Positions 34,985 through 56,316 of a stretch of 59,156 bases of DNA are shown here, piece by piece. The stretch comes from Sphingobium boeckii. Lineage in GTDB: Bacteria; Pseudomonadota; Alphaproteobacteria; Sphingomonadales; Sphingomonadaceae. The position numbers and the translations under genes are program-made. The notes under the pieces are model-generated. The model was not told the DNA's origin. It worked only from the letters and a program-made list of their open reading frames with translations, and did no database searches. Location of the stretch: positions 1 through 59,156 of the forward strand of contig NZ_JACIJC010000007.1 of the NCBI RefSeq assembly GCF_014199215.1. Direction: 5' to 3'. Every line of letters begins with the position of its first letter. Within the stretch, counting starts at the first letter, position 1.

Positions 34985-35004
34985 TTGTATTGGGTATATA
35001 TCAA
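34985..35004. promoter_or_regulatory. 20-bp regulon box (copy e)
   Basis: TTGTATTGGGTATATATCAA. It agrees with the cluster consensus at the end triplets TTG/CAA. It lies about 100 bases upstream of the leuC-like ATG on the minus strand. Confidence 0.6.
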
Positions 35005-35185
35005 TTAAAATCGGGATGTCGAGGTGACGGGCGCGCTCTTTTGCGGGGTCGCCGGGAAAAATTTCTCAGGACCATCGGCGCTGGATTTCAGTCCTTTGGT
35101 CGGCGGCTTGATCGACGGGCGCATCTTAGGGCCGATGGGCTAACGTTGAAAAAGTGATCGTCTGGCGCAGAAAGACGCTTGCCAA

Positions 35186-35205
35186 TTGTATCATATATAT
35201 ATCAA
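35186..35205. promoter_or_regulatory. 20-bp regulon box (copy f)
   Basis: TTGTATCATATATATATCAA, 57 bases before the VOC ATG. It is one of the best copies of the pseudopalindrome. Confidence 0.65.
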
Positions 35206-35262
35206 ATGGCGACATTGGCGATGCGCTATTTGGCGATCTCGCACAGATAGGAAGGACGAGGC

Positions 35263-36168
35263 ATGACGCTTCTGAAATGCGCGACGCATATTGTCGGGGA
35301 CGTGGACGCGGCCGTGGCGCGCTATTCGCAATGGCTGGATTACACCGTGGTCGAGGACGGGGTGATCCCTGCGGATCTTGCCGCAGCATGGAATGCGCCT
35401 GCCAGTGCAGGGCGCCGCTATGTCCTGATGCAGCCTTCATCGGGCAGTCCTGTCTTCCTTCGCTTTATCGAGGGCGACGACGTGCCCGACTATCGCCCCA
35501 TCCGCACCTATGGCTGGGCGGCGATCGAAATCTGCGTGTCCGATGTCGAGATCGTCAACGAGCGGATGATCGCTTCCAAGGTGTTCGATGTCATCGGCGC
35601 GCCCAAGCCGCTTGATGGCTTTCCCAATGTGAAACCGATGCAGGTGCGCGGACCGGATCAGGAAACCGTCTATCTCACCGAAATTCGCGTCGATGATCCA
35701 TCAAGCGGGCTGCCTCAGGTCAAATCGCTCGTCGATCGGCCGTTCATCCTCGTCCTGGCCTGTCCCGACCTGCGCGCGACCGCCAAATGGATGGCGGATG
35801 TGCTTGGTCTCGAGGTGATCGATCCCGTGGCCATCCGCTATTCCATGATCTCGCTCGCATTCGATCTGCCGGCGGAAAGCAAGCACGAACTGGTGACGGC
35901 GAAGTGGCAGGGTCAGGTGTTTCTGGAGGCGGATCAATATCCCGAGGGGACCACCGTCCGCCCCGCGCATCCCGGCGCTTTGCCACCCGGCGTTTCGATT
36001 GTTTCGATGGTGCACCCCGATCTGGCGCGGCTGGAGGGGCATTGGGCTTCGCCGCCAGTGTCGCGCGATGGCGCGCTTTATGCCGGTGCGCGCGTCGGCC
36101 TGCTCAAGACGCCCGAGGGCGCGCTTCTCGAAGTGATTGAAGGCGATCCGATCGCCTGGGGCAACTGA
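35263..36168 (+). CDS. VOC (glyoxalase/dioxygenase-fold) protein
   Basis: 301 residues forming two tandem VOC modules (about 1-130 and 140-290). They are recognisable from HIVGDVDAAVARYSQWLDYT, AAIEICVSDVEIVNERMIAS and FILVLACPDLRATAKWMADV LGLEV. Metal ligands cannot be fixed with confidence (candidates: His near the N-terminus and Glu in LLEVIEGDP at the end). The VOC fold covers ring-cleaving dioxygenases, lyases and isomerases, so only the fold is claimed. AGGACGAGG precedes the ATG. It leads a five-gene operon (VOC, alpha/beta-hydrolase-fold, membrane protein, two paralogous unknown proteins) preceded by a regulon box. Confidence 0.75.
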   Translation: MTLLKCATHIVGDVDAAVARYSQWLDYTVVEDGVIPADLAAAWNAPASAGRRYVLMQPSSGSPVFLRFIEGDDVPDYRPIRTYGWAAIEICVSDVEIVNERMIASKVFDVIGAPKPLDGFPNVKPMQVRGPDQETVYLTEIRVDDPSSGLPQVKSLVDRPFILVLACPDLRATAKWMADVLGLEVIDPVAIRYSMISLAFDLPAESKHELVTAKWQGQVFLEADQYPEGTTVRPAHPGALPPGVSIVSMVHPDLARLEGHWASPPVSRDGALYAGARVGLLKTPEGALLEVIEGDPIAWGN

Positions 36169-36201
36169 GGCCGCCCTGCGCGGCTCCATCAAGGATCAAG
36201 C

Positions 36202-37062
36202 ATGACTGAAACAGTTGAAATCAAACGGGGCTTTGTCGATCTGGCGCATGGCCAGATCCATTATCGCCATGCGGGATCGGGTGAGCCGATTTTGACGCTG
36301 CACGCATCGCCGGGCAGCTCGCGCCAGCTTCTGAGCGTGATCGGCGGCCTGGCGGCCGGGGGCAAGGTCTATGCGCCCGATACGCCGGGCAATGGCGACA
36401 GCGTGCCGCTCTTCGATCGTGAACCCATTCTGCCCGAACTGGCCGAAGCGGCGCTCCGCTTCATGGATGCGATGGGGTTGGAGACGGTGAAGCTCTATGG
36501 GTCTCACACCGGCGCGGCCATCGCGGCAGAGCTTGCGATCCTCGCGCCCGAGCGCATCAGCCATATCGTATTGGATGGCGTAAGCTGGCTGACGCCGGAG
36601 GAGCTGGAAGACATATTGGCCAATTATGCCTTTCCCTTTGTGCCCGATCAGGACGGCGCGCATCTGACCCGCCTGTTCCAGTTCTGCCGGGATCAATATA
36701 TGTTTTTCCCCTGGTATAAGCGTACCCGGGAAGGCCGTCGCGACAATGGTCTAGGCAGCGCCGCCGATCTCCACGCCTGGGCGTTGGAAGTGATGAAGGC
36801 GAGCGAGACCTACCACCTCAATTATCGCGCGGCGTTCAAATGGAATGCGCGCGATCGCCTGCCGCTTGTCACGGTGCCGGCGCTATTCATGGCGGGCGAG
36901 AATGATCCCTTGTTCGATATCACGAGCGAATTGTCATCGACCATTGCCGGTGGGCGCTTCGTTGCCCTGCCGCGCTTCGATGCCCCTAACTTTGTGGATC
37001 AGCGCCACGCCGCGATCACGACGTTCTTTGCCGAACGCTCTTCCACCCCGACGGAGGCTTGA
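36202..37062 (+). CDS. Alpha/beta-hydrolase-fold protein with His at the nucleophile position
   Basis: 286 residues with the full alpha/beta-hydrolase layout: oxyanion-loop region LTLHASPGSSRQ, strand-5 elbow LYGSHTGAAIAAEL, acid-loop ALFMAGENDPLFD and a C-terminal RHAAITTFF. The elbow should read G-x-Ser-x-G, but here it is G-S-H-T-G, so the nucleophile position is His. The product is therefore probably not a conventional esterase; it may be a lyase or a cofactor-free enzyme, or use another residue. The fused gene at 43057-44754 shows the same HT pattern, so they form a subfamily. Second gene of the VOC operon; AAGGA precedes the ATG. Confidence 0.85.
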   Translation: MTETVEIKRGFVDLAHGQIHYRHAGSGEPILTLHASPGSSRQLLSVIGGLAAGGKVYAPDTPGNGDSVPLFDREPILPELAEAALRFMDAMGLETVKLYGSHTGAAIAAELAILAPERISHIVLDGVSWLTPEELEDILANYAFPFVPDQDGAHLTRLFQFCRDQYMFFPWYKRTREGRRDNGLGSAADLHAWALEVMKASETYHLNYRAAFKWNARDRLPLVTVPALFMAGENDPLFDITSELSSTIAGGRFVALPRFDAPNFVDQRHAAITTFFAERSSTPTEA

Positions 37063-37064
37063 TC

Positions 37065-37724
37065 ATGGATTTCGGCGGATCACTGCTCACATTTCTCCAT
37101 ATCTTGATTCCCATCTACTGGCTGGGCGGAGACCTGGGAGCCTTTTATGGATCGACCTTCATGACCGATCCAAAGCGGTCGGTCGCTGAGCGTTTGATGG
37201 CGCTCAAGATCCTCAACAATATCGATATGGCTCCTCGCACGGCGCTGATCCTGTCTTTCCCTACGGGCTTTGCCTTGGCCTGGGCCAAAGGCTGGATCGA
37301 TGTATCGGGTGTCGCGGTAGCGGTCGTGGTCGTAGCTTTCCTGATCTGGCTCGCTTTGGCCTGGGCCGTGCACCTCCAGCACGGTGGCGGCAGCGGCATC
37401 AAGAAACTCGATATCGCCATCCGCTACGTCGTTCTGGCAGGGCTGGCCTATGGCGGCACGATGGGCCTCACCGGCGGTCTGCCCATCCCCTTCTTTATGG
37501 CGATCAAGCTCTGCATTCTGGCGGTTTGCGTTGCTTTGGGGCTGCTCGTGCGCCGGCAATTGGTGCCCTTGTTCGGCGCGATCCGCACGATGATCGCGAC
37601 CGGGCCGACGCCCGAAAGCGACGCGGTCATTGCCGCCGTCAATGCCAAGGCACGCATCTCGGTGCTGACCATCTGGGGGCTGGTCCTGCTGGCCAGCTTT
37701 CTCGGTATCGCGCGCCCGGCCTAA
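37065..37724 (+). CDS. Multi-helix membrane protein, function unknown
   Basis: 219 residues with about six hydrophobic segments (SLLTFLHILIPIYWLGGDLG, ALILSFPTGFALAW, VAVAVVVVAFLIWLALAWAV, and others). It has conserved-looking charged and His positions (LHIL near the start, VHLQHGGGSG in the middle). Similar small proteins appear beside catabolic and copper/cytochrome genes, but I cannot name the family. GGAGG seven bases before the ATG at 37065 fixes the start; the hydrolase stop lies just upstream. Third gene of the VOC operon. Confidence 0.65.
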   Translation: MDFGGSLLTFLHILIPIYWLGGDLGAFYGSTFMTDPKRSVAERLMALKILNNIDMAPRTALILSFPTGFALAWAKGWIDVSGVAVAVVVVAFLIWLALAWAVHLQHGGGSGIKKLDIAIRYVVLAGLAYGGTMGLTGGLPIPFFMAIKLCILAVCVALGLLVRRQLVPLFGAIRTMIATGPTPESDAVIAAVNAKARISVLTIWGLVLLASFLGIARPA

Positions 37725-37763
37725 GCGCTTTTCCACCTGCTCATATAAATGGAGAGACACGTC

Positions 37764-38489
37764 ATGAAACATGAAACGATCAGCGGTAAGATCCTCTACA
37801 CGTCCAGAAAGCCGGGTCGCGAAGGTGAGGAGCGGGGCCGCGAATATTTCACCTTCACCAAGCATAGCGATGGCAGCCGCACGTTGCGGGCGCTGTGTGA
37901 GATCGAAGAACCCAGCCCCACGGTGATGCGCGACATCACCTACAGCCTCGATGCAAACGATATGCCGACCGATTGCTTCGTGCGCCTGATGATCGGTGAC
38001 ACGTTCATGGGGGCCGGCCTGTTCCGGATCACGGAGGATTTCGTGGAATGCGAAAGTTTCGGCCCGTCGATCGGCCGCCTTTCGCAAAAAGTCCCCATCG
38101 TCGGGACGTTTGACGGCTTTGGCACGCACCCGATTCAGGGCGACGCCTATATCACCAAGAAGATGGACAAATCCAAGGGGCCGCACGCCCGCGCGCTGCG
38201 CACCTTCCTGCCATCGCCTGACCATCGCGGGGCCACGCCGCCGATGATCTCTGAAGTGAACATCCAGCTTGCCTATCTGGGCGACGAGACGGTGACTGTA
38301 GAGGCTGGCACCTTCGCCGCTTCTCATTATCGCTTCAGCGATCCCGACGCCGGCATGGCGACGGCGGACGGCGCACACCCGGATTATGACGTGTGGGTCA
38401 CGGCAGACGACGACGCCATTTTCCTCAAGGGCGGCGTCGGCGGCTATATGCAGACCTGGTACGAACTCGCCGAACTGACGCGCCGCTGA
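37764..38489 (+). CDS. Unrecognised protein, tandem paralogue 1
   Basis: 241 residues, soluble, no signal peptide. Family not recognised. The middle and end (DETVTVEAGTFAASHYRFSD, then HPDYDVWVTADDDAIFLKGG VGGYMQTWYEL) recall the beta-rich barrel of DUF3108/DUF6134-type proteins (V.VPAG.F...HYR...DVWV), a weak inference. The charged start GKILYTSRKPGREGEERGRE is shared with the next gene. The two proteins are about 70% identical by eye and arose by tandem duplication. GGAGAG lies seven bases before the ATG at 37764. Fourth gene of the VOC operon. Confidence 0.8.
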   Translation: MKHETISGKILYTSRKPGREGEERGREYFTFTKHSDGSRTLRALCEIEEPSPTVMRDITYSLDANDMPTDCFVRLMIGDTFMGAGLFRITEDFVECESFGPSIGRLSQKVPIVGTFDGFGTHPIQGDAYITKKMDKSKGPHARALRTFLPSPDHRGATPPMISEVNIQLAYLGDETVTVEAGTFAASHYRFSDPDAGMATADGAHPDYDVWVTADDDAIFLKGGVGGYMQTWYELAELTRR

Positions 38490-38550
38490 TCGACAGGCCT
38501 GCGCCGCCGCTGGATTGAAATGGCGGCGCAGCGCCTGCTGGAGATCTGAC

Positions 38551-39258
38551 ATGCAGCATCGATCGCTCGTCGGAAAGATCCTCTACACCTCCATGAAGCC
38601 GGGCCGGGAGGGGCAGGAAAGGGGGCGGGAGGATTTCACCTTCACCGTCCATCCGGATGGTAGCCGAACGGTGCGCGCGCTCTGCGAGATCGAGGAGCCG
38701 GCTCCTACGGTGTTGCGTGATATCACCTGCAGTTTCGATGCGAACGATCGACCCACGGACTGCTTCGTTCGGCTGATGATCGATGATCGGTTTCTGGGTG
38801 CGGGTCTGTTCCGCTTCACCCAAGATGCGGTGGAATGCGAGAGCTTTGGGCCTTCCATCGGCCGCGTATCGCAGACCATGCCGCTCGGTGGATCCTATGA
38901 CGGCGTCGGGATGCACCCGATCTCAGGGGACGCCTATATCGTCAAGATGATGGACAAGGCCCGCGGGCCGCACAGTCGCGTGGTGCGCAGTTTTATTCCC
39001 TCGCCCGACCATCGCGGCGTCGGCGCGCCCTTGATCGGGGAGGGGCGGATGCAATGCACCTATTTGGGCGATGAGAACGTCACCGTGAAGGCGGGCCGTT
39101 TCGAGGCATCGCACTTTCGCTTCACCGATCCCGAAACACAGAGCCATCCCGATTACGACATCTGGGTCACGGCCGATGACGACGCCATTTTTCTGAAAGG
39201 CGGGGTCGGGGGCTATATGCAGACCTGGTATGAGCTCGTGGCGTTACACCAGCGGTAA
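38551..39258 (+). CDS. Unrecognised protein, tandem paralogue 2
   Basis: 235 residues, closely related to the preceding gene along the whole length. Shared segments include ESFGPSIGR, FIPSPDHRG/FLPSPDHRG and DDDAIFLKGGVGGYMQTWYE. Differences are spread evenly, and a short DAGMATADG insertion of paralogue 1 is missing here. GGAG seven bases before the ATG supports the start. Retaining both copies suggests a hetero-oligomer or two related substrates. Last gene of the VOC operon; it converges on the cupin gene. Confidence 0.8.
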   Translation: MQHRSLVGKILYTSMKPGREGQERGREDFTFTVHPDGSRTVRALCEIEEPAPTVLRDITCSFDANDRPTDCFVRLMIDDRFLGAGLFRFTQDAVECESFGPSIGRVSQTMPLGGSYDGVGMHPISGDAYIVKMMDKARGPHSRVVRSFIPSPDHRGVGAPLIGEGRMQCTYLGDENVTVKAGRFEASHFRFTDPETQSHPDYDIWVTADDDAIFLKGGVGGYMQTWYELVALHQR

Positions 39259-39300: not shown

Positions 39301-40116
39301 TCAGAACGCCTCCGGTCCGTCCCAGGGGCGGGTCCAGCTTTCGGGCGTGCCTTCGGGGATTGCGGGAGCGTAGGGTGCGCCGATCGGCAGCGGCTTGGGC
39401 GCCGACCATTCGGTGCGGACCTTGTTCGCGCCCGCCCGCATGATCTGGAAGAAGCCGGCTTGCGACACATGGGGGCCGTGCACGATGCCGGGCGGACGAT
39501 AGAAATAAGCGCCCGGCCGGATCAATCCCTCGGGCGTCCACATCTCGCCCTGAAGCATCAGCATCTCTTCAAAATGATCATGAGTCTCCGCTGGCATGGC
39601 GTCGGCCGGAGGCACGCCATGGGGCAGGCCCAGCAGCAGGAAGGTCCGCGAACTGTCATTGGGGCCAAGACGCATCACTTTGCGGGCAAGGCGCAGATGC
39701 GCAATCTGGGGATCACTTGCAGACATGTCCCACGGCACCGACAGAGGGTCGACTGTGATCGCCTCCGACACGCCTGAAATGCTGTTGGGATCGTCGCGGC
39801 CATAGCGGAAGATGAGCAGGGTGGCGCCCTGTTCGCTCGCCCTGATGCCGGCGCTCTCCCCGCGCGGGATGAAACCATAGGCATGATAGGCGCGCGCCTT
39901 TTCATCGATCACGATGGTGCCATCGAGCACGAAATATTCCTCGGCGCGGTCTTCCGGTCCCATATCCTCACGGATGAACCCTGCTGGATAGCGCACGATG
40001 CAGGTCTCCGCGCCGTCCGCCGGATCGAAATTCAATCGTTTCACCCGCGTGCCATCGGCCTGCACCTGCCAGTCGATATTCTGGCATTGGACGAATTCGA
40101 TATAGGGGCGGGCCAT
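39301..40116 (-). CDS. Bicupin protein
   Basis: 271 residues with two cupin-like halves. The first (about 50-110) lacks most metal ligands (DRAEEYFVLDGTIVIDE). The second (about 175-235) has a candidate site, THDHFEEMLMLQGEM ... PPGIVHGPH, with two His, a Glu and a later His, suggesting Fe or Mn binding. It could be a dioxygenase, an isomerase or a sensor. It is the last gene of the operon hydrolase-MFS-FAD oxidase-cupin; its ATG lies three bases after the FAD-oxidase stop. Confidence 0.8.
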   Translation of the reverse strand: MARPYIEFVQCQNIDWQVQADGTRVKRLNFDPADGAETCIVRYPAGFIREDMGPEDRAEEYFVLDGTIVIDEKARAYHAYGFIPRGESAGIRASEQGATLLIFRYGRDDPNSISGVSEAITVDPLSVPWDMSASDPQIAHLRLARKVMRLGPNDSSRTFLLLGLPHGVPPADAMPAETHDHFEEMLMLQGEMWTPEGLIRPGAYFYRPPGIVHGPHVSQAGFFQIMRAGANKVRTEWSAPKPLPIGAPYAPAIPEGTPESWTRPWDGPEAF

Positions 40117-40118
40117 GG

Positions 40119-41717
40119 TCAGGCGGCCAGGCCGAGGGCACCCGGATTGATCCGGCCCTCCGGATCCAGAAGGTGCTTGACGCCTTCGATCAGCAAGCGC
40201 GATTCAGGACGCATGATATCGGCATAGTGATAGGTGCGGCCGATCTGATTGGACTGCGCGCCGAACGCGGCGAACAGTTCCACGATCTCTCCGCGCACTT
40301 TCATGACAAGCGCGCGCGCCTGTGGATTGGGAACGGGCTCTGCGGTCTTCGCCTTGGTCTCCGCGCTCACCATGGCATGGTGCATCGGCAACCAACTGTC
40401 ATGCCAATTGAACACCGGCTCATAGCTGAAAACGTGACTGCCGATCACGGTGAGAAGGCGCGATACGATCACGCCCGCCGCATCCAGATCGCTTTGGTGG
40501 CGCGCGATGAGCGCTTCGACCGCATCGACGAGCTTGTGTGCATCACTATGGGCGACCTTGGCATTGAGCGCGATCCATCGATCGCCCGTCGCCCCCAGCA
40601 CGGCGTCGAGCTGCGAGAAAGGATCGGCGCGGCCGGCGCGGGGGATGGAATTGGGCAGTTCCTTTCCACCGAGCTTCGCCACGATCGCGCGGGCCAGAGC
40701 CATGTCTCCGTCTACGGCTTCGCGGCTGCGACCGGCCAGGACGATGTGAAGCGAATAACAACCGTCGTCGATGAAATCGCGGCCAGCCATGGCAAGCTGC
40801 GCACCAGCTTTGAGCCCGCGCAGCAGTCCGCGCTCTTGCGTGACCACCTTCATCAGCGTCTTGGCATCCTTGACCAGGTCGCTCGGCGTGGCAAGCGCCT
40901 GCCGGGTCTTGTCCGGATCCATCATAAAGGCATCTTCTGCGAGTTCGCAGCGGCCGATCTCGCAAATCGCCTCGACGCCGGCATCCCGATCCTGAAAGCC
41001 GAAGGACAGATAGTCGGTGTGCGCCGGGGTGCGCATCATGCGAAAGGTGAGTTGACCCTTGATGCCCATCGCGCCGGCATCGTGCACGAAAAGCCCGGTG
41101 GTATCGGGGCCGAAGGTGCGGGAAAACGGACGCGTCGCCGTGGAGATCGCCGTCTGCCCGGTGTGGAGGATGGATCCGTCGGCCAGCACGACCTGCAGGC
41201 CCAGCACGATCTCCGCAGAAGTGCCGTAGCGGGCAGTGCCTAGAAACAGCGCCCCGTTGGACAGGCCACCGCCCACGGTCGCGCCCCGACCGGAAAAGGT
41301 GCCGAAAAACGGCAAGCGCAGGCCCAGAGGTTTCAGGGCTTCGTGGATGGCCATCCATGTCACGCCCGCCTCGACGGTGATGAGCATGTCCTGCGCATTG
41401 ATTTCGATAATTTTGTTCATACGCCGCAGATCGACCGCGACCGCGCCTTCGGTTGGCGAGACATAGCCCTGCACATAGGTCAGCCCGCCACCGCGGGGGA
41501 GGAGCGCGAGCCCGGCCTTGGCGATTTCCTTTGCGGCGGCACTCAGTTGTTCGATCGAATCCGGACGGATGACGGCGGCGACCAATCCGGACGCGCTGTA
41601 GAGATCGGCGGAATGAAGGCGGCGGCTCTCCATGTCGATCAGCAAACCCTCGGCGCCGAGAATGGCATCGAGACTTTCGATCAGGCTGTCGCGGGTGATG
41701 GCGGCGGTCGTGGTCAA
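40119..41717 (-). CDS. FAD-linked oxidase of the VAO/GlcD type
   Basis: 532 residues. An N-terminal FAD-binding (PCMH) domain (about 20-230) shows LLPRGGGLTYVQGYVSPTEG, EAGVTWMAIHEAL and FSGRGATVGGGLSNGALFLG. The C-terminal FAD-oxidase domain ends in the typical LLDPEGRINPGALGL. Family members oxidise phenolic side chains, 2-hydroxyacids or similar substrates with flavin. It is paralogous to 56355-57974. The TTG at 41717 overlaps the MFS stop and follows AAGGGAAG. Confidence 0.9.
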   Translation of the reverse strand: MTTTAAITRDSLIESLDAILGAEGLLIDMESRRLHSADLYSASGLVAAVIRPDSIEQLSAAAKEIAKAGLALLPRGGGLTYVQGYVSPTEGAVAVDLRRMNKIIEINAQDMLITVEAGVTWMAIHEALKPLGLRLPFFGTFSGRGATVGGGLSNGALFLGTARYGTSAEIVLGLQVVLADGSILHTGQTAISTATRPFSRTFGPDTTGLFVHDAGAMGIKGQLTFRMMRTPAHTDYLSFGFQDRDAGVEAICEIGRCELAEDAFMMDPDKTRQALATPSDLVKDAKTLMKVVTQERGLLRGLKAGAQLAMAGRDFIDDGCYSLHIVLAGRSREAVDGDMALARAIVAKLGGKELPNSIPRAGRADPFSQLDAVLGATGDRWIALNAKVAHSDAHKLVDAVEALIARHQSDLDAAGVIVSRLLTVIGSHVFSYEPVFNWHDSWLPMHHAMVSAETKAKTAEPVPNPQARALVMKVRGEIVELFAAFGAQSNQIGRTYHYADIMRPESRLLIEGVKHLLDPEGRINPGALGLAA

Positions 41718-43060
41718 GCGGCTTCCCTTTCCTTGTGATCCAGCGCGGCAGCACGGAAAGCGGCGCGCCCGGTGTAGAGCACCAGCGTCGCAGCCAGGCC
41801 GCATCCGAAGAAGACGACGCCAAGCGACCAGGCAATGCCGCCCGGGCTGGTGAAAATGGTGTCGGACAGAAAACCGACGATGAAATTGCCGGTCGTGAGC
41901 GCGATGAGCCCCGAGCAGATATTGTGCAGCGCCATGACCTGCCCGCGCATCTCATTGGGCACGATCATCGAGATGCCCGAATAGACCCCGGAGATATTCC
42001 AATTGAGGAACAAGGCGTTGAGCGCGTAACCCAGCAATGCGAGCGAGCCGGATGGCACCAGACAGGCGAATGTGCCAAACACCACCATGGACAGGCCACA
42101 GGCGATCGCGGCGAGCATCGGCGCATCCGAATGGCCGCGCTTCGTGAGCCAGGAGATCACCCAGCCGCTGTTGATGGCCGCGAAAATGCTGATCGGCATT
42201 CCGACGGCACCGAGCAGCCAGCCTGTTTCCGCAGCGCCCCAGCCATGGACCCGTATGAACAGCGCAGGAAACCAGCCGATGATCGCATAGACGCAGACAA
42301 GATTGAGCACCGTGCCCAGCATCAGCGATCCGAATGCCCGCGGATGTCTCTTGAAAAGCTGGATGATGGGCCGAAGGCTGATCGGCGGGGTCACGCCGGA
42401 AACGCCGTGACGCTTCGGCTCGCGGACCGTCAGCATGATGACGAGGGCGAGGAGAATGCCCGGTGCGCCGCACAGGATGAACACGATCTGCCAGGGGGCC
42501 ATGTTCTCGAACATGGCGTAATCGACGATAAGATGATCCGCCGTGACGAGAAACAGTCCCGAAAGGCCCATCGCCGCCGCGGTGCCGAGAGAACTGCCCG
42601 TGACGAATGTGCCATAGGCCTTGGGTCTTACGTCGGGCTCGAAATAATCTGCGATCAGCGAGGCGGCGCAGGGCACCAGAGCAGCTTCGCCGACTCCCAC
42701 GAGCATTCGCGCAAAGAACAATCCGCCGAAGCTGCTGGCAAAGGCGCATCCGATGGTGGCGGCGCTCCATAGCAGGAGGCCGATGACCAGCAGGGGCACC
42801 CGTCGTGATCGATCGCACCATATGCCCAGGGGGAGGCCCAACATGCTGTAAAACAGGCTGAAGGCCATGCCCTGCAACAGCCCGAATTGCGTATCGTTGA
42901 TATGGAGCGTCGCCTGCAACGGCACGATGAGCAGGCCGATCGACACCCGGTCCAGAATCGCCAGGGCATAGGCCAGCGTCAGCAGCGAGACGACATACCA
43001 GGCATATTTCCGCGGCGGCCAGTTATGGTCTTTTGCGGATGGCATGGCGAGCGCGATCAC
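41714..43060 (-). CDS. MFS transporter (spinster-like)
   Basis: 448 residues with about 12 membrane helices. The typical MFS start is YAWYVVSLLTLAYALAILDRVSIG, and loop 2-3 carries the motif GLPLGIWCDRSRRVPLLVIG. The DRxSIGLL opening matches the spinster-related MFS group that often carries aromatic or organic acids in sphingomonads. GTG at 43060 has GGAGGG five bases before it; ATG at 43045 is possible. It lies between the fused hydrolase and the FAD oxidase in one operon, so uptake of the cluster substrate is likely. Confidence 0.88.
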   Translation of the reverse strand: MIALAMPSAKDHNWPPRKYAWYVVSLLTLAYALAILDRVSIGLLIVPLQATLHINDTQFGLLQGMAFSLFYSMLGLPLGIWCDRSRRVPLLVIGLLLWSAATIGCAFASSFGGLFFARMLVGVGEAALVPCAASLIADYFEPDVRPKAYGTFVTGSSLGTAAAMGLSGLFLVTADHLIVDYAMFENMAPWQIVFILCGAPGILLALVIMLTVREPKRHGVSGVTPPISLRPIIQLFKRHPRAFGSLMLGTVLNLVCVYAIIGWFPALFIRVHGWGAAETGWLLGAVGMPISIFAAINSGWVISWLTKRGHSDAPMLAAIACGLSMVVFGTFACLVPSGSLALLGYALNALFLNWNISGVYSGISMIVPNEMRGQVMALHNICSGLIALTTGNFIVGFLSDTIFTSPGGIAWSLGVVFFGCGLAATLVLYTGRAAFRAAALDHKEREAA

Positions 43061-48553: not shown

Positions 48554-48576
48554 TCCCGATCCGCTGGATTTCAAGA

Positions 48577-48722: not shown

Positions 48723-49520
48723 ATGAAGCAGGACGTCAAATCAGGGGGTGGTATAGTGATTGACCGGGCTGCGGCGGTACCTTTGTATCACCAGATTTAT
48801 CTTCAACTGAGAGATGAGATTTTAAGCGGCCAGCGGCCCACCGGCAGCGCGCTGCCGACCGAGCAGGAACTGTCCGAAATTTATGCCGTGTCGCGCATCA
48901 CCGCGCGTCGGGTTCTCACCGAATTGGCGCAGCAGCATTTCGTGGAGCGCAAGCGCCGACTGGGCACGCGCGTCATCTTTCAGTCGCCCGCCACGCCGAT
49001 GGAAGCCAATATCGATCAGGCTGTCGATTCACTGCTGGCGTTCGGCCGCCGCACCCCTGTCACCGTGATCGAGGTCGCAACCGAAAACCCTTCGGCCATT
49101 GTCGCCAGCGCCTTGAAAATAGACCCCACCGATCAGGTCATTCGTGCTGTGCGCGTCCGTTCCATGGATGGCGAGCCACTCGGTTATATCGTCAGCTATG
49201 TGCCCGCAGCACTTGGTGACGTGATCACGACCGCCAATCTGGCCAAGGCGCCGATCCTCAAGATACTTGAAGAAGCGGGTCACCGGGCGGTGCAGGCGGA
49301 GCAGACGATCAGTGCGATGCAGGCTGATGCCGTCATTTCTCAGGCGCTCAACATCGAATCGCGTTCCGCGCTGTTGCGGATCGCGCGCACCACCTATGAC
49401 AAGGATCATAAACCCTTCCTCCTGACTTTCGCGCACTACCGCGCCGACAAATTCACGATCCGGCTTGATCTCCAGCATCCGGGCGGTGCCACCTTGACGC
49501 CGACCATCACGCAAGGCTGA
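48723..49520 (+). CDS. GntR-family regulator with UTRA domain
   Basis: 265 residues. The N-terminal winged helix (about 18-80) reads PLYHQIYLQLRDEILSGQRP, then LPTEQELSEIYAVSRITARR VL. The C-terminal UTRA effector domain (about 100-255) shows VIRAVRVRSMDGEPLGYIVS YVP and RIARTTYDKDHKPFLLTFAH YRADKF. HutC-type regulators are usually repressors released by a substrate or intermediate and bind T/A-rich palindromes. It sits in the middle of the cluster and is the natural candidate for the 20-bp boxes. ATG at 48723 is shown; GTG at 48756, with AGGGGG seven bases upstream, may be the true start. No box lies before its own gene. Confidence 0.9.
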   Translation: MKQDVKSGGGIVIDRAAAVPLYHQIYLQLRDEILSGQRPTGSALPTEQELSEIYAVSRITARRVLTELAQQHFVERKRRLGTRVIFQSPATPMEANIDQAVDSLLAFGRRTPVTVIEVATENPSAIVASALKIDPTDQVIRAVRVRSMDGEPLGYIVSYVPAALGDVITTANLAKAPILKILEEAGHRAVQAEQTISAMQADAVISQALNIESRSALLRIARTTYDKDHKPFLLTFAHYRADKFTIRLDLQHPGGATLTPTITQG

Positions 49521-49546: not shown

Positions 49547-49566
49547 TTGTTATATAAGCCATACAA
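49547..49566. promoter_or_regulatory. 20-bp regulon box (copy b)
   Basis: TTGTTATATAAGCCATACAA, 26 bases after the GntR stop and 95 bases before the next start codon. Confidence 0.6.
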
Positions 49567-49661: not shown

Positions 49662-50678
49662 GTGAAAGCATTTCAGATCGGCGAACAAAGCGGAATCCAG
49701 AGCCTGACGGCGACGACGCGGCCAGATCCCGTCGCAGCGGCGGGCCAGGTGGTGGTCGCGCCGCGCCTCATCAGCCTCAACAATCGCGACATTCAGATCC
49801 TGCGCGGATCCTATGGTGCCAAAAAGCCGCAGGAGCGGGTTCCCGTGTCCGAAGGCGTGGGCATCATCACGTCGGTCGGTGACGGCGTCACTGCGTTCGC
49901 CGTGGGTGATCGCGTGATCAGCAGTCACTTCGTCAACTGGTCGGGCGGCGATTTTGGATATCATGCCTTCGGCTTCGATCTGGGTGTGACGCATGATGGC
50001 TGGCTGGCCGAGCGCGTCGCCATCCCCGCTCATGCTCTCATTCGCGTGCCTGAAGCGTTGTCGGACGCGCAGGCCGCGGCACTGCCTTCGGCAGGGTTGA
50101 CCGCCTGGAATGCCCTGGTGGAAGTCGGCAAGGTCAAGGCCGGCGATCTCGTTCTTTGCCTTGGCACGGGCGGCGTGGCGACATTTGCGCTTCAGATCGC
50201 CAAGGCCAATGGCGCGCGCGTGGCCATCACCTCGTCCAGCGACGAGAAGCTTGCCCTTGCCCGAACGCTGGGTGCCGATATCACGATCAACTATCGCACG
50301 AGCGCCGATTGGGCCGCCGAACTGATGGCGCAGACCGGCAATACGGGGGCCGACATCGTGGTCGAAACCGGTGGCCAGGGCACGCTGGGCCAATCCATCG
50401 CCGCGGCGGCGGTCAACGGGCGCATCGTCATCATCGGTGTGACCGCGGGTCAGGGCTTGAGCGTTCCGAATTATGGAACGATCATCGGCAAGAATCTGAC
50501 GCTGAAGGGCATCGCGAACGGCAGCAATGCCATGCTCGCCAAACTGGTGCGCGCGGTTGAGGTCAACAAGATCGATCCTCTGGTTGCCAAGACGTTCAAA
50601 TTCGATGAAGCGCCCGAAGCCTATGCCTATTTTGCGGCGGCCGAACATGTGGGCAAGGTGATGATCGAATTGGCATGA
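49662..50678 (+). CDS. Zinc-free MDR oxidoreductase (quinone-reductase-like)
   Basis: 338 residues. It has a GroES-like N-domain (SLNNRDIQILRGSYG, VPVSEGVGIITSVGDGVTAF AVGDRV) and a Rossmann domain (LVLCLGTGGVATFALQIAKA). No catalytic zinc ligands are seen, so a quinone/enoyl-reductase-type activity with NADPH is more likely than alcohol dehydrogenation. GTG at 49662 follows AGGAG at seven bases. It is coupled to the MmgE/PrpD gene by ATGA and preceded by box b. Confidence 0.88.
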   Translation: MKAFQIGEQSGIQSLTATTRPDPVAAAGQVVVAPRLISLNNRDIQILRGSYGAKKPQERVPVSEGVGIITSVGDGVTAFAVGDRVISSHFVNWSGGDFGYHAFGFDLGVTHDGWLAERVAIPAHALIRVPEALSDAQAAALPSAGLTAWNALVEVGKVKAGDLVLCLGTGGVATFALQIAKANGARVAITSSSDEKLALARTLGADITINYRTSADWAAELMAQTGNTGADIVVETGGQGTLGQSIAAAAVNGRIVIIGVTAGQGLSVPNYGTIIGKNLTLKGIANGSNAMLAKLVRAVEVNKIDPLVAKTFKFDEAPEAYAYFAAAEHVGKVMIELA

Positions 50679-52036
50679 GCAATGCCGCGTCGATACTGGC
50701 TGATCATGCACTCGGCGTGGAATGGTCAGAATTGCCGGACAGCGCGCGTCGCGCGGCGCTGAACTTTCTTCATGATACGCTGGTCGTGGGCATTGCCGGT
50801 CGCAATGCCCCGCTCGCGGAATCCGCATATGCGGCGGCCAGAAAATGGAGCGGGCAGGGCGGCAACGGCCTGGTGCTGGGTCGCCCCGAGGCGGCATTGA
50901 CGACGCCGCACGCGGCGTTCGTCAATGCCTATCAGATCCACAGCCAGGAATATGACTGCGTTCATGAACCCGCTGTCGCTCATCCGATGGCGAGTGTCGG
51001 CGCGGTGCTGCTGGCCGAAGCGGGACGGTCACCGGCCAACGGCGCGGATTTTCTCTCCGGCATGATTGCCGGGGTCGATATCGTGGCGACGCTGGGTGTC
51101 GCGGCGAAATCGCCGCTCAAATTCTTCCGACCGGCTACGGCAGGGATTTTCGGATCAATCGGCGCCATCTGTCGTATGCGGCGCCTCTCACCCGAAATCA
51201 CGATCAACGCGTTCGGCTATGGCCTCGCCTTTGCCAGCGGCACCATGCAGGCGCATCTTGAAGGCAAGCCCGCACTGGCGATCCAGGTGGCAGCAGCAGC
51301 GCGCTCGGCGATCGAAGCGGTAGATCTTGCGCTGGCCGGATTTGAAGGACCGCAGGGGTCCTTCGATGGTCCTTTCGGCTATATGGCGCTGTTCGAAGAC
51401 GACGTGGATCTCGAACACGCACTCGGCCAATTGGGAACATGCCAACGTATCGAAGAACTGAGCTGGAAACCCTTCCCCACCGGGCGTGCGGCGCATGGTG
51501 CAATCATCGCGCTGCAGCGCTTGATGCAAGATCATGGGATCACGTCGGATAATCTGGAACGGTTCGTCTACCGTGCGCCGCCCCTGATCCATCGTCTGGT
51601 GGGGCGTCGGCCCTTTGCGGGCATGGGCATTGCCTATGCACGGCTCTGTTTTGCCTGGCTCGGTGCGGTCGTCCTCACGCGGGGGACGATCGACCTGACG
51701 GACTTTACGCCTGAGCGTCTCGCAGACCCGGCCATATTGGCGCTGGCAGAGCGGATCGAAGTCGAGATCGACGACAATCGCGATGCCGCCGCCTTCGTGC
51801 CGGCCATCGGCATTGCGACGATGCGCGGCGGCGCGGCATTCAGCCAAATGGTCGATCGGCAATTCGGCTCACCCGAATGGCCCTTGAGTGCGCAAGAACA
51901 TCTGGCCAAGGCCGCGCGCTGCCTGGCATTCGGGGATATGCCAGGCATCCACGATGCCCTTGCGGCCCTGATGGAGCGCTTCGATGGCGTGGGCGATGTG
52001 CACGACGCGCTCGCCGAGGTGATGGGTCGCGTTTGA
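50675..52036 (+). CDS. MmgE/PrpD family protein
   Basis: 453 residues of the 2-methylcitrate dehydratase / cis-aconitate decarboxylase superfamily. Visible features are ARRAALNFLHDTLVVGIAG, HAAFVNAYQIHSQEYDCVHE (the family's active-site-like HxxEYD region) and HPMASVGAVLLAEAG. Members dehydrate or isomerise tri- and dicarboxylates, and many are uncharacterised. Together with the leuCD/lyase operon, this suggests processing of a branched polycarboxylate. It starts in the stop of the MDR gene and ends at a bidirectional hairpin. Confidence 0.87.
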   Translation: MSNAASILADHALGVEWSELPDSARRAALNFLHDTLVVGIAGRNAPLAESAYAAARKWSGQGGNGLVLGRPEAALTTPHAAFVNAYQIHSQEYDCVHEPAVAHPMASVGAVLLAEAGRSPANGADFLSGMIAGVDIVATLGVAAKSPLKFFRPATAGIFGSIGAICRMRRLSPEITINAFGYGLAFASGTMQAHLEGKPALAIQVAAAARSAIEAVDLALAGFEGPQGSFDGPFGYMALFEDDVDLEHALGQLGTCQRIEELSWKPFPTGRAAHGAIIALQRLMQDHGITSDNLERFVYRAPPLIHRLVGRRPFAGMGIAYARLCFAWLGAVVLTRGTIDLTDFTPERLADPAILALAERIEVEIDDNRDAAAFVPAIGIATMRGGAAFSQMVDRQFGSPEWPLSAQEHLAKAARCLAFGDMPGIHDALAALMERFDGVGDVHDALAEVMGRV

Positions 52037-52070: not shown

Positions 52071-52904
52071 TCAATGCGGTTCCTCGCCGCCCGAGACATT
52101 CAGGGATTCGGCTGTGATATAGTCCGCCGCATCCTGGCACAGAAAGGCGACGGCGTTGGCCGTATCCTGTGGAATACCGGGGCGTCCCATCGGGATGCGC
52201 GCGGCCATATCGGCCATATATTGATCGAGTGACTTGCCCTGCCGCTCCGCGAAATAGCTGTTCTGCCATGCGCCAAGCCCGGTGGTGACATGATTGGGGC
52301 AGACGTTGTTCACCGTGATGCCATGGCTGCCCAGTTCGATCGCGGCGGAGCGCGCGAGGCCGACAAGCCCGTGCTTCGACGCCGTATAGGCTTGCGCGCA
52401 GGGAAAACCGCTTTTGGCCGCCTGGCTTGCGATGTTGATGATGCGGCCACCCTTGCCCGCCGCGATCATGCGCTCCGCGGCAGCGCGCAGGCCGAAAAAG
52501 GATCCGGTCAGATTGACGTCGATCACCGCCGTCCAATCGTGCTCGGTCACTTCGAGCAGCGGCTTCATGATATAGCCGATGCCCGCGTTATTCACCCAGA
52601 TATCCAGACTGCCATGCTCGGCCACGGCATGATCGGCCAGCGCCTGAACCTCGTCCCAGCGGCGCACGTCGCAGGCCATAGCCGAGACTGCTACACCCTT
52701 TGCCTTGATGGCTTGCGCGATCTCTTCCATCTCGGACGAGAGCCCGATCATCGAGTCAGGGGTTGCCGCATCGCGCGACGCGCCGATGTCGGACAGGACG
52801 ATATTGGCACCATCTTCGGCCAGGCGGAGGGCGATGGCCTCACCCAGACCGGCCTTGCGGCCCGAACCCGTGATAACGGCGGTCTTGCCGGCGAGGGGCT
52901 TCAT
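52071..52904 (-). CDS. Short-chain dehydrogenase/reductase
   Basis: 277-residue classical SDR. Cofactor motif TGSGRKAGLGEA, structural NNAG (DIWVNNAGIGYI), catalytic Ser (INIASQAAKSG) and YTASK. It should interconvert an alcohol and a ketone with NAD(P). The ATG at 52904 overlaps the upstream REDY-like stop (ATGA). The C-terminus NVSGGEEPH lies just before the shared hairpin. Regulated from the divergent region holding box a. Confidence 0.92.
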   Translation of the reverse strand: MKPLAGKTAVITGSGRKAGLGEAIALRLAEDGANIVLSDIGASRDAATPDSMIGLSSEMEEIAQAIKAKGVAVSAMACDVRRWDEVQALADHAVAEHGSLDIWVNNAGIGYIMKPLLEVTEHDWTAVIDVNLTGSFFGLRAAAERMIAAGKGGRIINIASQAAKSGFPCAQAYTASKHGLVGLARSAAIELGSHGITVNNVCPNHVTTGLGAWQNSYFAERQGKSLDQYMADMAARIPMGRPGIPQDTANAVAFLCQDAADYITAESLNVSGGEEPH

Positions 52905-53218
52905 GCCGCGCTCTCGATCGGGCGCGTCAGAATGAAAACGGGGTCGGCCCAATCCTGAAACTCTCCGGCGATTCGCGCCATGGCTTCGGTCGATACTTCC
53001 TGACCGAACAGATCCATGTCGGCGACATCGATGATTTCAATAAAGTCATAAGGCGGTTTGGCATCGCTGCCCAACACGCCCGTGCTTTGGAAAAGCGTAA
53101 AGGAATCGACGGATTTCAGAGCGTTGACCGTGGGAAGATCGGTTGTGACCGCCCAGCGCTCATAATCTGACGCTGTCTTTCCAGGCTTCAGGTTCACCAA
53201 TACGATTATTCGCGTCAC
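52901..53218 (-). CDS. REDY-like (HapK-type) small protein
   Basis: 105 residues. The sequence RIIVLVNLKPGKTASDYERW ... TDLPTVNALKSVDSFTLFQS ... PPYDFIEIIDVADMDLFGQE matches the REDY-like/HapK group of small ferredoxin-like (dimeric alpha-beta barrel) proteins. Relatives occur in pigment biosynthesis and many sphingomonad catabolic clusters; biochemical roles are unclear. GTG at 53218 is preceded by AGAGGA at seven bases; ATG at 53239 is the alternative. It is coupled to the SDR. Confidence 0.75.
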   Translation of the reverse strand: MTRIIVLVNLKPGKTASDYERWAVTTDLPTVNALKSVDSFTLFQSTGVLGSDAKPPYDFIEIIDVADMDLFGQEVSTEAMARIAGEFQDWADPVFILTRPIESAA

Positions 53219-53259
53219 GGGTCGTTCCTCTCTTGGCATTCGAAATTTACGGTGTCATA

Positions 53260-53279
53260 TTGTTATAAACATATACCAA
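53260..53279. promoter_or_regulatory. 20-bp regulon box (copy a)
   Basis: TTGTTATAAACATATACCAA in the 83-base divergent region between the REDY-like and methyltransferase genes. It ends 22 bases before the methyltransferase ATG. Confidence 0.65.
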
Positions 53280-53301: not shown

Positions 53302-54519
53302 ATGACACGCCCCAACGCGCCTGAGCAAATGCCCTATGAGGGGCCACCCGATTATCGCGTCGTCGGGCGTCATGCGGTGTTTCCGCAAACCGATCATGAC
53401 GAGATCGAGCGGATCAATTTTCTCGCGCAAATGAACCGTCATCTCTCGACGCGCGTCGTTCCCGGCGTCCGCGCAGCCTATGACAATCGCATCGCGCCCG
53501 GTTTCGAAAAGGCCAACGGCCGGGCTCTCGCCGATCGGCACGAGGCTCGAAGGGCGTCTCTGCAAGATCCCGCTTTCACGCTCTGGTCAGCGTTGCGGCG
53601 CATGACGATGGAGCAGCGCCAGCAGGCTGGCCGCTGGACCGCCATCCGCCAGCGCGAAGCCCTGGCAGAGAAGGCCGCGGCGCTCACTGAGGGTGACACG
53701 CGGCTTCGGCTGGACCCAAGCCTTCCCATTCCGCGTTATGTTTCCGCGGTCGATCATCATTGTATGCCAGGCAGCTATCACAGCGAATATTTCCCGGGTG
53801 ATGTGACCAACGGAGCCAATTACGATCACGCAGGCTTCGTCACGACAGCGGGACTGCTCGGCAAATATTCGGATGGCGGCGGTCATGCCGTCGTCAAATG
53901 GGTCCAGCGCAATTTCCCCGACTTCAAGCCCCAGGCGATATTGGAAATCGGCGGGACTGTCGGTCACTCGAGCCTGCCTATCGCCATCGCCTATCCCGAA
54001 GCGCATATGACCGTGGCCGATCTGGGTGCCCCGGTGCTGCGTTATGGTCTGGCCCGCGCCAAGTCGCTTGGCGTGGACAATATTTCCTTCGTTCAGGCGA
54101 GTGGAGAGGATTTGTCGATTTTTCCGGATGCCAGCTTCGACTGGATCCAGACCACCATGTTTCTTCACGAACTCTCGAACAGCGCACTTGATAATATCAT
54201 GCGCGAGACGCGACGTTTGCTGAAGCCGGGCGGCATCGTCCTTCACGTCGAACAGCCTCAATTTACGCCTGACATGCCCTTGTTCGAGCAGGTGATGCGG
54301 GATTGGGACGCCTTCTACAATAATGAGCCATTCTGGAGCCGGATGCACGAGCTCGATCTCGATCAGCATATGGTGGACGCCGGTTTCGATCGCGAAAAGC
54401 TGATCCATGGCGGGGTCACGGGCGTGGTGGATCGGGATCTGTTTCCCGATGCGGCGGAGGACGATACCGAAGATTATGGCCGCAAGGCCGCATGGCATGT
54501 CATCGGGGCGACGGTCTGA
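53302..54519 (+). CDS. SAM-dependent methyltransferase with long N-terminal domain
   Basis: 405 residues. The class I methyltransferase core lies at about 205-330: motif I ILEIGGTVGHSSLPIAIAYP, acidic strand TVADLG, FVQASGEDLSIFPDASFDWI and LLKPGGIVLHVEQPQ. Motif I carries an unusual GGTVGH in place of GxGxG. About 200 residues upstream form an extra domain with no recognised family, followed by the odd pre-motif HHCMPGSYHSEYFPGDVTNG. In a catabolic cluster the enzyme may transfer or remove methyl groups. It leads the operon methyltransferase-coiled-coil-flavoprotein. Confidence 0.85.
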   Translation: MTRPNAPEQMPYEGPPDYRVVGRHAVFPQTDHDEIERINFLAQMNRHLSTRVVPGVRAAYDNRIAPGFEKANGRALADRHEARRASLQDPAFTLWSALRRMTMEQRQQAGRWTAIRQREALAEKAAALTEGDTRLRLDPSLPIPRYVSAVDHHCMPGSYHSEYFPGDVTNGANYDHAGFVTTAGLLGKYSDGGGHAVVKWVQRNFPDFKPQAILEIGGTVGHSSLPIAIAYPEAHMTVADLGAPVLRYGLARAKSLGVDNISFVQASGEDLSIFPDASFDWIQTTMFLHELSNSALDNIMRETRRLLKPGGIVLHVEQPQFTPDMPLFEQVMRDWDAFYNNEPFWSRMHELDLDQHMVDAGFDREKLIHGGVTGVVDRDLFPDAAEDDTEDYGRKAAWHVIGATV

Positions 54520-54878
54520 TGAGCGTGAACGATGCCATTGCGCAAGCCGGCGCCAAGGCCGCCGGCAAGAGGCCGTATTTTCTGGATGAGGAGGTGGAAA
54601 CCGTCCTCGCGATCACCATGGCCACGGTCCAGGAACTGGCCGTCTCCCGCCAGCGGATCGATACGCTGGAGCGTCTGCTTGAAGACAAGGGCGTTCTGAA
54701 GCGCCAGGAAATCGAAACCTTCACGCCCGATCCCGCCGCCGCGATCGAACGTGCGCTTTCCAATCAGGAATTGATCGCCCGCATCCTGCGGATCGTGCAG
54801 CAGCGCAACGAAGCCGCCGATCTGGCTAGCGATGTGGCCTCCGAAGAGGTGGGGAATGAAATCGGGTCCCGGCCTTGA
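54519..54878 (+). CDS. Small helical protein between methyltransferase and flavoprotein
   Basis: 119 residues, predicted almost entirely helical with coiled-coil character (VQELAVSRQRIDTLERLLED, then SNQELIARILRIVQQRNEAA). Family not recognised. Its ATG overlaps the methyltransferase stop by one base (TGATG) and its end overlaps the flavoprotein start (TTGA). All three should therefore be made together, and this one may be a subunit or assembly partner. Confidence 0.75.
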   Translation: MSVNDAIAQAGAKAAGKRPYFLDEEVETVLAITMATVQELAVSRQRIDTLERLLEDKGVLKRQEIETFTPDPAAAIERALSNQELIARILRIVQQRNEAADLASDVASEEVGNEIGSRP

Positions 54879-56251
54879 GTCGTTTCGATTTTTCGGTGCC
54901 CGTTCTGATCGCTGGTTCGGGCGCTTGCGGCGCGGTTGCGGCACTGGCGGTCGCAGATGCTGGCGTGATGCCATTGGTCGTGGAGCGGGATGACAGGCCG
55001 GGAGGCTCCACCGGCATGTCGCAAGGGCTGTTTTGCGCGGCGGGCACGCGCTCGCAGCAGGAGCACGGCATAGACGATAATGCCGACATCTTTTTCGACG
55101 ACATCATGGCCAAGACCAAGGGCCTCGCCGATCCCGTCATCGCGCGCACGCTGGCTGCAAATAGTGCGCCGGTGCTGGAATGGCTGCGCGATGTTCATGG
55201 TCTGCCATGGGAGTTGGATACGCGCTTTCGCGCTTCCTATGGCAACAGTCGCCAGCGGGTTCATGGCTGGCCCGAACATAGCGGGATGGATATGGTGCAA
55301 TGGCTCCATCGTCGCATGAACGATGCCAGCATCGATGTGCTGATGCAGACCAGATTGGTCGATATTTTCATGGACGAGGGGCGGGTGGTCGGCGCCGCGC
55401 TTGAGCGCGCGGATGGCGTGATCGAGCATGTCGGCTGCGATAGCCTGATCATCGCCTGTGGCGGCTTTGGGGCCAACAGGGCCATGACCAACCTCCACAT
55501 GCCGGAAACGGCGACGTTGCGCTTCAACGGCCATGAAGGCAGTCTGGGCGAAGCCATTGAAATTGCCGCGCGTCTCGGTGCGGCCCAGGGGGATATGGGC
55601 AGCTATCAGGGCTATGCAATGCTCACTGATCCGCAGGGGATATCGGTCCCGCCGCCGGTGCTGATCGAAGGCGGCCTGATCGTCAACAAGTCAGGCGATC
55701 GCTTCACCGATGAATCACATGACATCGCGGGCATGGTGCATCCGCTATCCGTGCAGTCCGATGGCATGGGGTGGGTCATCTATGATGCCGAAATCGAATC
55801 CCGATGCGCGCTCATCCCGGAACTGGTCCAGTTGATGGCGTTGAACGCGCAGAAGGAAGCGGACAGCATCGCTGAACTGGCGCGCCTCACGGGCACCGAT
55901 CCGGCCCGCCTGAACGCCGCCATTGGCGAGGCCCAAAAGGTGGCCGACGCACACGGCACAGATTCTTTCGGCCGCGTCTGGGCCGATGGCCGGGTGCCGC
56001 GGGCTGCCTTCCGCGCGCTCAAGGTGACCGGTGCGCTCTATCATACGCAGGGCGGCCTCCAGATCGATGAATCGGCCCGCGTGCTCCGCCCTGACGGGAC
56101 GGCCTTTCCAAATCTTTTTGCAGGGGGCGGTTCGGCACGCTCCGTCTCGGGGCCGTCATCCTGGGGCTATCTCCCCGCCATGGGGCTGACGACGGCGGTG
56201 GTGCTGGGGTGCCTTGCCGGTCGGGCCGCGGCATCCGCCAGCGCTGCCTGA
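54875..56251 (+). CDS. FAD-dependent dehydrogenase (fumarate-reductase/KstD-like)
   Basis: 458 residues. The N-terminal FAD motif is VLIAGSGACGAVAALAVADA G...VERD, with the GGSTGMSQGLF loop typical of fumarate-reductase-flavoprotein and tricarballylate- or ketosteroid-dehydrogenase relatives. The mid-region has CGGFGANRAM; the C-terminal FAD-binding part is LFAGGGSARSVSGPSSWGYL PAMGLTTAVVLGCLAG. It would introduce or reduce a C=C bond next to a carbonyl or carboxyl. Start: TTG at 54875 overlapping the previous stop. No iron-sulphur partner is present. Confidence 0.87.
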   Translation: MSRFDFSVPVLIAGSGACGAVAALAVADAGVMPLVVERDDRPGGSTGMSQGLFCAAGTRSQQEHGIDDNADIFFDDIMAKTKGLADPVIARTLAANSAPVLEWLRDVHGLPWELDTRFRASYGNSRQRVHGWPEHSGMDMVQWLHRRMNDASIDVLMQTRLVDIFMDEGRVVGAALERADGVIEHVGCDSLIIACGGFGANRAMTNLHMPETATLRFNGHEGSLGEAIEIAARLGAAQGDMGSYQGYAMLTDPQGISVPPPVLIEGGLIVNKSGDRFTDESHDIAGMVHPLSVQSDGMGWVIYDAEIESRCALIPELVQLMALNAQKEADSIAELARLTGTDPARLNAAIGEAQKVADAHGTDSFGRVWADGRVPRAAFRALKVTGALYHTQGGLQIDESARVLRPDGTAFPNLFAGGGSARSVSGPSSWGYLPAMGLTTAVVLGCLAGRAAASASAA

Positions 56252-56296
56252 TTGTCCTGCGAACATTTGTGCAGCGTCTTGCAACCTCGAATTTAT

Positions 56297-56316
56297 ATGT
56301 CATAACACTAATACAT
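56297..56316. promoter_or_regulatory. 20-bp regulon box (copy g)
   Basis: ATGTCATAACACTAATACAT, the weakest copy, keeping G3, T4, T7, A8, C18 and A19. It lies 38 bases before the preferred ATG of the FAD oxidase. Confidence 0.45.

Follow-up and report, generated by a model that had tools for sequence, protein, structure and literature searches.

A conserved 24-bp palindrome before most units of a sphingomonad catabolic cluster is a predicted operator of its GntR/UTRA regulator

A catabolic gene cluster with seven intergenic boxes

The window analyzed here, the whole of contig C7 (59,156 bases) from the 4.03-Mb, 14-contig genome of Sphingobium boeckii, holds about 28 kb of hitherto unexplained catabolic genes, among them genes for a TonB-dependent receptor, two MFS transporters, and a GntR/UTRA regulator (Table 1). 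Scattered through the cluster are seven 20-bp pseudopalindromic boxes, which an original prediction, made by reading the bases, had proposed to define a regulon of the GntR/UTRA protein. All seven 20-mers were recovered with the coordinates and strands given there. The prediction counted seven promoter regions; the boxes are indeed at promoters, but they occupy six intergenic regions, with 34985 and 35186 in the same one; some of these regions are divergent, and about nine transcription units are served. It also held G3, T4, C18, and A19 to be invariant, which is true in its own orientation of the sites; G3 and C18 do not depend on orientation, but T4 depends on the one chosen. Spurious open reading frames (ORFs) overlap several boxes, and the genes as assigned in this analysis contain none, which bears out the statement that no box lies inside a gene.

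With a symmetric weight matrix trained on the same sites, the seven top-scoring 20-mers of the window were the seven boxes (scores, 19.5 to 28.5), followed by position 46209 at 16.4, which overlaps the box at 46217, and then by positions scoring 14.9 and 14.5. A leave-one-out approach is fairer, as the full matrix was trained on the seven sites; every omitted site stayed within the top 10 of the window, with 4, 4, 5, 3, 6, 0, and 9 positions ranked above it. In 40 simulations with third-order Markov versions of the window, a mean of 0.05 sites per window exceeded a score of 19. The box set is confirmed to be intergenic and far above the chance level.

Table 1. Boxes and transcription units of the catabolic cluster (window coordinates)
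Feature	Position	Strand	Sequence	Context	Evidence
Box 1	34985..35004		TTGTATTGGGTATATATCAA	Upstream of leuC-leuD-lyase-alcohol dehydrogenase unit (-)	Matrix score; near-copy at pJE1 HMG-lyase/CaiB promoter
Box 2	35186..35205		TTGTATCATATATATATCAA	Upstream of VOC unit (+)	Pairwise identity: box 0.69, flanks 0.34
Box 3	44813..44832			Divergent promoter: fused hydrolase/MFS/FAD/cupin unit (-) and MFS (+)	Identity: box 0.86, flanks 0.51
Box 4	46217..46236			TonB receptor promoter	Identity: box 0.67, flanks 0.43
Weaker box	46209..46228			Overlaps box 4, offset 8 bp (predicted double operator)	Score 16.4
Box 5	49547..49566			MDR-PrpD unit promoter	Identity: box 0.84, flanks 0.39
Box 6	53260..53279			Divergent promoter: HapK-SDR (-) and methyltransferase-FAD (+)	Identity: box 0.84, flanks 0.52; TTGGCA-17-CATATT overlaps box start
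Box 7	56297..56316			Promoter of FAD oxidase-MDR-hyuA unit	Identity: box 0.76, flanks 0.45
leuC, leuD, PEP-mutase/methylisocitrate-lyase family protein, Zn-alcohol dehydrogenase	30932..34882	-			Profile matches and pJE1 comparison
VOC-fold protein, alpha/beta hydrolase, membrane protein, DUF3108-like protein, second similar protein	35263..39258	+
Cupin, FAD oxidase, MFS transporter, fused double alpha/beta hydrolase	39301..44793	-
MFS transporter	44877..46142	+
TonB-dependent receptor	46241..48553	+
GntR/UTRA regulator, proposed box binder	48723..49520	+			Pfam GntR 3.1e-17, UTRA 7.2e-32; co-occurrence
MDR-family dehydrogenase and MmgE/PrpD-family protein	49662..52036	+
SDR and HapK (REDY-like) proteins	52071..53239	-
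Methyltransferase, small conserved protein, FAD_binding_2 dehydrogenase	53302..56251	+
FAD oxidase (GlcD/VAO-like), MDR dehydrogenase, hyuA start cut by contig end	56322..59155	+

The boxes recur in orthologous clusters

We scanned genomes with the pattern WTGDHWTANNNNTAWDHCAW, allowing up to one mismatch and using the reversed pattern as a control. The S. boeckii genome contained 16 pattern places (control, 3), of which 7 fell on contig C7, or 1.5% of the genome. These seven are six of the boxes plus position 46209; the box at 49547 requires two mismatches and was missed. Four other sphingomonad genomes carry an orthologue of the GntR protein (68 to 80% identity), and in these, 11 of 11, 8 of 15, 6 of 6, and 8 of 8 pattern places lay inside the orthologous-cluster stretch (33 of 40 in total; controls, 0, 2, 0, and 1). 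The original prediction had proposed a genome scan for equal frequency of the motif in unrelated regions, and the counts in both S. boeckii and the four genomes came out in its favor. A further 23 genomes of the same genus or family held 0 to 14 places (1 to 7 in 21 of them), with 0 to 6 for the control. In 16 genomes of other families, there were 1 to 75 places, and in many of them the pattern and the control were both common, so the scan is uninformative there. A structure-free covariance model of the boxes was of no use genome-wide (a single match; E value, 3.55), and a loose palindrome pattern gave 175 places versus 92 for its control, too many to interpret. In the genome designated G071, 7 of 26 pattern matches are gathered within 37 kb (C1, positions 199511 to 236414) that include a 37%-identical GntR homologue, a clustering that suggests a distant version of the regulon.

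Gene and box order is mostly kept in Sphingomonas solaris, Novosphingobium sp. Leaf2, Sphingomonas sp. Mn802worker, and the plasmids pJE1 and pTomTYG65b (the last up to the end of the record), so that the cluster is also plasmid borne in at least two other sphingomonads. A further plasmid, pSA1, has six boxes at a spacing close to that of pJE1, as judged from box positions rather than genes. When five sequences were aligned, the boxes were more conserved than their flanks in all six promoters compared (the leuC promoter was left out). That the same putative operator stands before most units of one catabolic cluster and is kept across genomes is well supported by these comparisons. The interval separating the TonB receptor gene from the GntR gene has no box scoring above 13, which makes direct autoregulation of the regulator improbable here. 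This interval also contains a terminator-like hairpin of 14 pairs (window positions 48573 to 48604); such hairpins were no commoner in the region scanned than in shuffled sequences.

An additional boxed operon on another contig

Between leuC and the VOC gene, pJE1 carries a block that is missing from the window and consists of two polysaccharide deacetylase family genes, an isochorismatase-family gene, an HMG-CoA-lyase gene, a box, CaiB, leuC2, and leuD2. One of the nine off-contig matches in S. boeckii, C4:611787, lies exactly between orthologues of the HMG-CoA-lyase-like and CaiB genes, the very place at which the pJE1 orthologues have a box, and the entire block is present on contig C4 with 66 to 86% identity to pJE1. 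A search for the boxes can thus find missing members of the predicted regulon, as it led to this operon in the same genome. In addition, a remnant of the 5′ end of the HMG-lyase gene flanks the box at 34985 (window positions 34880 to 35010; C4:611700-611860), with 107 of 138 positions alike to pJE1 and 33 of 37 to C4. The block therefore appears to have been moved or copied away, with its promoter left behind.

The match at C4:611787 scored 20.3, versus 21.3 and 19.6 for two off-contig matches inside long ORFs (C5:406337 and C4:92516). We treated the latter two as background because of this location, and likewise C1:111958, which was seen as a short sequence only. The remaining five off-contig matches (L052 to L056) were compared with pJE1 proteins only. 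A 3,874-bp contig, C11 (hyuA-hyuB), has ends that overlap the end of C7 (window positions 59063 to 59155), the start of C8 (1 to 94), and the end of C4 (621575 to 621715). Contig C11 is likely a collapsed repeat, and from these overlaps, C7 and C4 may be neighbors. The first 14,000 bases of C8 (L115) hold a catabolic cluster paralogous to this one, in which a methyltransferase, an FAD oxidase, and a lyase are 37%, 36%, and 69% identical to pJE1 proteins. No box scored above 12.7 in these 14 kb, which perhaps answer to another regulator.

Box presence follows a clade of UTRA regulators

The predicted identity of the 265-aa protein encoded at 48723 to 49520 was confirmed by Pfam matches to an N-terminal winged helix (PF00392; 62.4 bits versus a cutoff of 27) and a C-terminal UTRA domain (PF07702; 110.6 bits versus 23.8). 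Its best NCBIfam match is the HutC equivalog (TIGR02018), a catabolic repressor family. The match, at 107.3 bits, is below the cutoff of 220, and no histidine utilization gene is among the annotated proteins here.

We then compared 50 loci of about 3.7 kb around GntR homologues (25 to 79% identity, own locus excluded), counting a box at a score of at least 16. The loci were the best-scoring ones (at most 30 per search) from 98 and 397 genomes. At about 49% identity or more to the GntR protein, 17 of 18 loci had a box (the exception is L095), compared with 6 of 32 below this level. Locus L083, and perhaps L084, looks like a region of the four-genome scan and would in that case not count as separate evidence. 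At each of the 17 close boxed loci, no more than 2.7% of 300 trials with permuted matrices of equal composition gave a score as high as the observed one. This result speaks against the possibility that the boxes are promoter or transcription-start elements that are alike by chance, as might be supposed from their overlap with presumed −10 regions and their A/T richness in a window of 60% GC. Neither the genome-wide clustering, which is not expected of general promoter parts, nor the conservation of boxes above their flanks agrees with chance likeness, which we regard as extremely improbable.

The boxes track the recognition helix of the regulator. The signature VSRIT[AV][RK]R[AV], picked after the helices had been compared, was accompanied by a box in 22 of 28 loci, and only 1 of the 22 loci without it had one. 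The helix can be set against that of NagR (YvoA) of Bacillus subtilis, a solved GntR/HutC relative with a winged helix, a UTRA domain, and palindromic operators (dre-sites), which reads two guanines with Arg38 and Arg48 according to PMC4333415. The equivalent of Arg48 is kept in the S. boeckii protein, where the SR of VSRIT aligns with that of ISRMT, and SR is present in every row of the helix comparison. The place of Arg38 is taken by Gln in the alignment, and an arginine at this place was found in 0 of 30 boxed rows versus 9 of 27 unboxed ones (a count made afterwards). Retention of Arg48 together with the change of Arg38 to Gln fits the TTG half-site of the boxes rather than the TGG of NagR. 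The co-occurrence of boxes and homologues across loci thus supports the proposal that the GntR protein is the regulator of the boxes. In six of the loci (L088 to L091, L096, and L098), a second type of cluster was seen, in which the GntR gene has a VOC homologue as its neighbor, frequently together with homologues of the methyltransferase and the SDR, and boxes are near.

Operator geometry

For a fuller motif, we pooled 54 boxes from eight sequences (7 from the window, 1 from C4, and 46 from six other genomes or plasmids; score of at least 15.2, overlaps collapsed). The resulting site is 24 bp long, AWTTGWTATATnnATATAWCAAWT. G3 and C18 are kept in 99% of the boxes and T7/A14 in 96%, in a set picked by a matrix that favors these positions. 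The extension to 24 bp comes from an A/T preference at two flanking positions per side, which are not part of the matrix. Between the conserved G3 and C18 are 14 bp. The corresponding spacing is 5 in FadR, 6 in NagR, and 6 or 8 in AraR (PMC4333415), and the half-sites thus do not lie 5 to 8 bp apart as in these three solved GntR complexes, a range that is usual rather than family defining. The general statement in the original prediction that UTRA-type proteins bind T/A-rich palindromes is therefore too simple, as the half-site spacing here is 8 bp longer than that of NagR.

Overlapping pairs of hits (score of at least 12, within 30 bp) occur at an offset of 8 bp only, with four cases in the eight sequences. 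In three of these (Leaf2, S. solaris, and Mn802worker), the core of the pair reads TTG-N6-CAA, which is the NagR spacing. Two loci of distant homologues, L021 and L029, also hold pairs at this offset. We tentatively propose, at odds somewhat below even, that the clade of UTRA regulators with the VSRIT[AV][RK]R[AV] signature reads a 24-bp operator whose half-sites, with 14 bp between them, do not fit the side-by-side geometry of the solved complexes, and that the interlocked boxes of some TonB promoters make a NagR-like 6-bp core, so that a second dimer or a dimer-spacing switch could tune uptake apart from catabolism, in a regulon for degrading a natural product that contains a lactam or imide and might be a linear tetrapyrrole.

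Promoters and a proposed mechanism

In six of the nine units, the sequence CTTG, a presumed −35-like element, is found 5 to 30 bp upstream of the box. All five aligned sequences retain this element at the VOC, MFS, TonB, and FAD oxidase promoters, as do four of five at the methyltransferase promoter; the HapK element is outside the comparison. With a 17-bp spacer, the implied −10 region overlaps the box in these five units (for TonB, via the second box). A strict consensus promoter match beside a box occurs only at the methyltransferase promoter.

This arrangement suggests repression by covering of the promoter, relieved by a ligand of the UTRA domain. A GntR dimer would occupy each 24-bp palindrome, on top of the −10 region or next to it, and block transcription, with the arginine equivalent to NagR Arg48 reading the conserved G of each TTG. 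Since the half-sites are 14 bp apart, the two DNA-binding domains would need to spread wider than they do in the NagR, FadR, or AraR complexes. Binding of a pathway compound to the UTRA domain would release the dimer, and outer-membrane uptake through the TonB receptor, the two MFS transporters, and the enzymes would be induced together. Alternatively, the GntR protein may act as an activator or as both an activator and a repressor, which would accommodate the variable position of the boxes relative to CTTG and the three of nine units that have no TTG within 40 bp upstream. We consider this unlikely, given that the implied −10 overlaps a box wherever the −35-like CTTG is kept and that NagR is a repressor (PMC4333415).

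Weighing the regulator assignment

Recurrence of the boxes at orthologous promoters and their tracking of one regulator clade make them predicted GntR operators. Several observations weigh against this reading. The 14-bp spacing exceeds that of the solved GntR complexes, and besides the three units without TTG, consensus promoters are no commoner than in shuffled sequences (4 versus 3.8; 1 versus 0.4). The cluster of N. piscinae is rearranged, with fewer boxes at matching promoters, and within S. boeckii, the match C5:406337, inside an ORF, outscores C4:611787. Six loci with the helix signature (L095, L019, L020, L099, L025, and L026) have no box of at least 16 in their stretch, and L100 has a box without the signature. 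The A/T-rich loci L022 and L023 were counted as boxed, and permuted matrices did equally well there in 5.7% and 17% of 300 trials. Finally, orthologous loci share many genes, and another conserved regulator outside the stretches read may explain the close set.

In a rival explanation, the boxes are operators of a different regulator, e.g., of the TetR or MarR family, encoded elsewhere, and the GntR gene merely cotravels. Several regulator families are compatible with such A/T-rich palindromes, and both the spacing, which is odd for GntR, and the 6 of 28 signature loci without a box would be in keeping with it. In each of L086, L087, L093, and L094, however, the distance from a box to the matched GntR stretch is about 170 bp or less (with boxes flanking it in L086 and L093), and the 3.7 kb compared contain no homologue of any of the 28 other window proteins searched for. 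Together with the dependence of box presence on the recognition-helix signature across the 50 loci, this makes a cotraveling GntR gene quite improbable. We judge it very probable from these comparisons that the boxes are operators of the GntR/UTRA protein and mark nearly every unit of one large catabolic cluster.

Comparison with known systems

Reading the boxes as GntR operators turns the cluster into one testable regulon with a named regulator and defined predicted operators, whose geometry in the UTRA family differs from that of the cited solved complexes. AraR of B. subtilis has an effector domain different from that of the GntR/UTRA protein. It resembles this protein in that only one of the two guanine-reading arginines is kept, and it differs in its shorter spacing (PMC4333415). 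Atu1419 of Agrobacterium fabrum (GntR/VanR) is similar in being a repressor of a local catabolic region, for hydroxycinnamic acids, with palindromes over −10 boxes (PMC7797058), but it belongs to the VanR/FCD group rather than UTRA and has a 10-bp palindrome, ATGTATACAT. In the available portion of PMC5343134, which covers HutC regulons in Proteobacteria, there is nothing on the present regulator. Among the literature matches listed, none deals with this cluster or regulator in its title or in the opening of its abstract, in a search whose coverage mostly excludes subscription papers. The regulon is well supported by the comparisons above; it would pair a regulator and an operator in a new way, with unusual spacing, within a familiar type of system.

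Possible substrate and other features of the window

Searches of NCBIfam, Pfam, and the PDB left the pathway unnamed. Further proteins of the pJE1 cluster resemble PuuE allantoinase, N-carbamoylsarcosine amidohydrolase, and caprolactamase subunit beta, all with NCBIfam matches below the curated cutoffs. We infer that the substrate may bear a lactam or imide and that its breakdown would finish with hydration of an alkylmaleate and cleavage by a lyase. That the substrate is a linear tetrapyrrole is a guess, and an unlikely one. Strain TomTYG65 is among isolates from tomatine-treated soil (PMC10653915), and "GntR" does not occur in the accessible part of that text. A reporter combined with the regulator would provide a handle for finding the inducing compound. 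In the VOC unit, the DUF3108 name was taken from the pJE1 orthologue, the window protein having no Pfam match, and the likeness of the two proteins was judged by eye.

Elsewhere in the window, positions 6296 to 11977 together with 11974 to 16542 encode a giant BapA-like adhesin with 15 Big_6 stretches, close to an ABC transporter. By eye, the ORFs beside it resemble the remaining parts of its type I secretion system.

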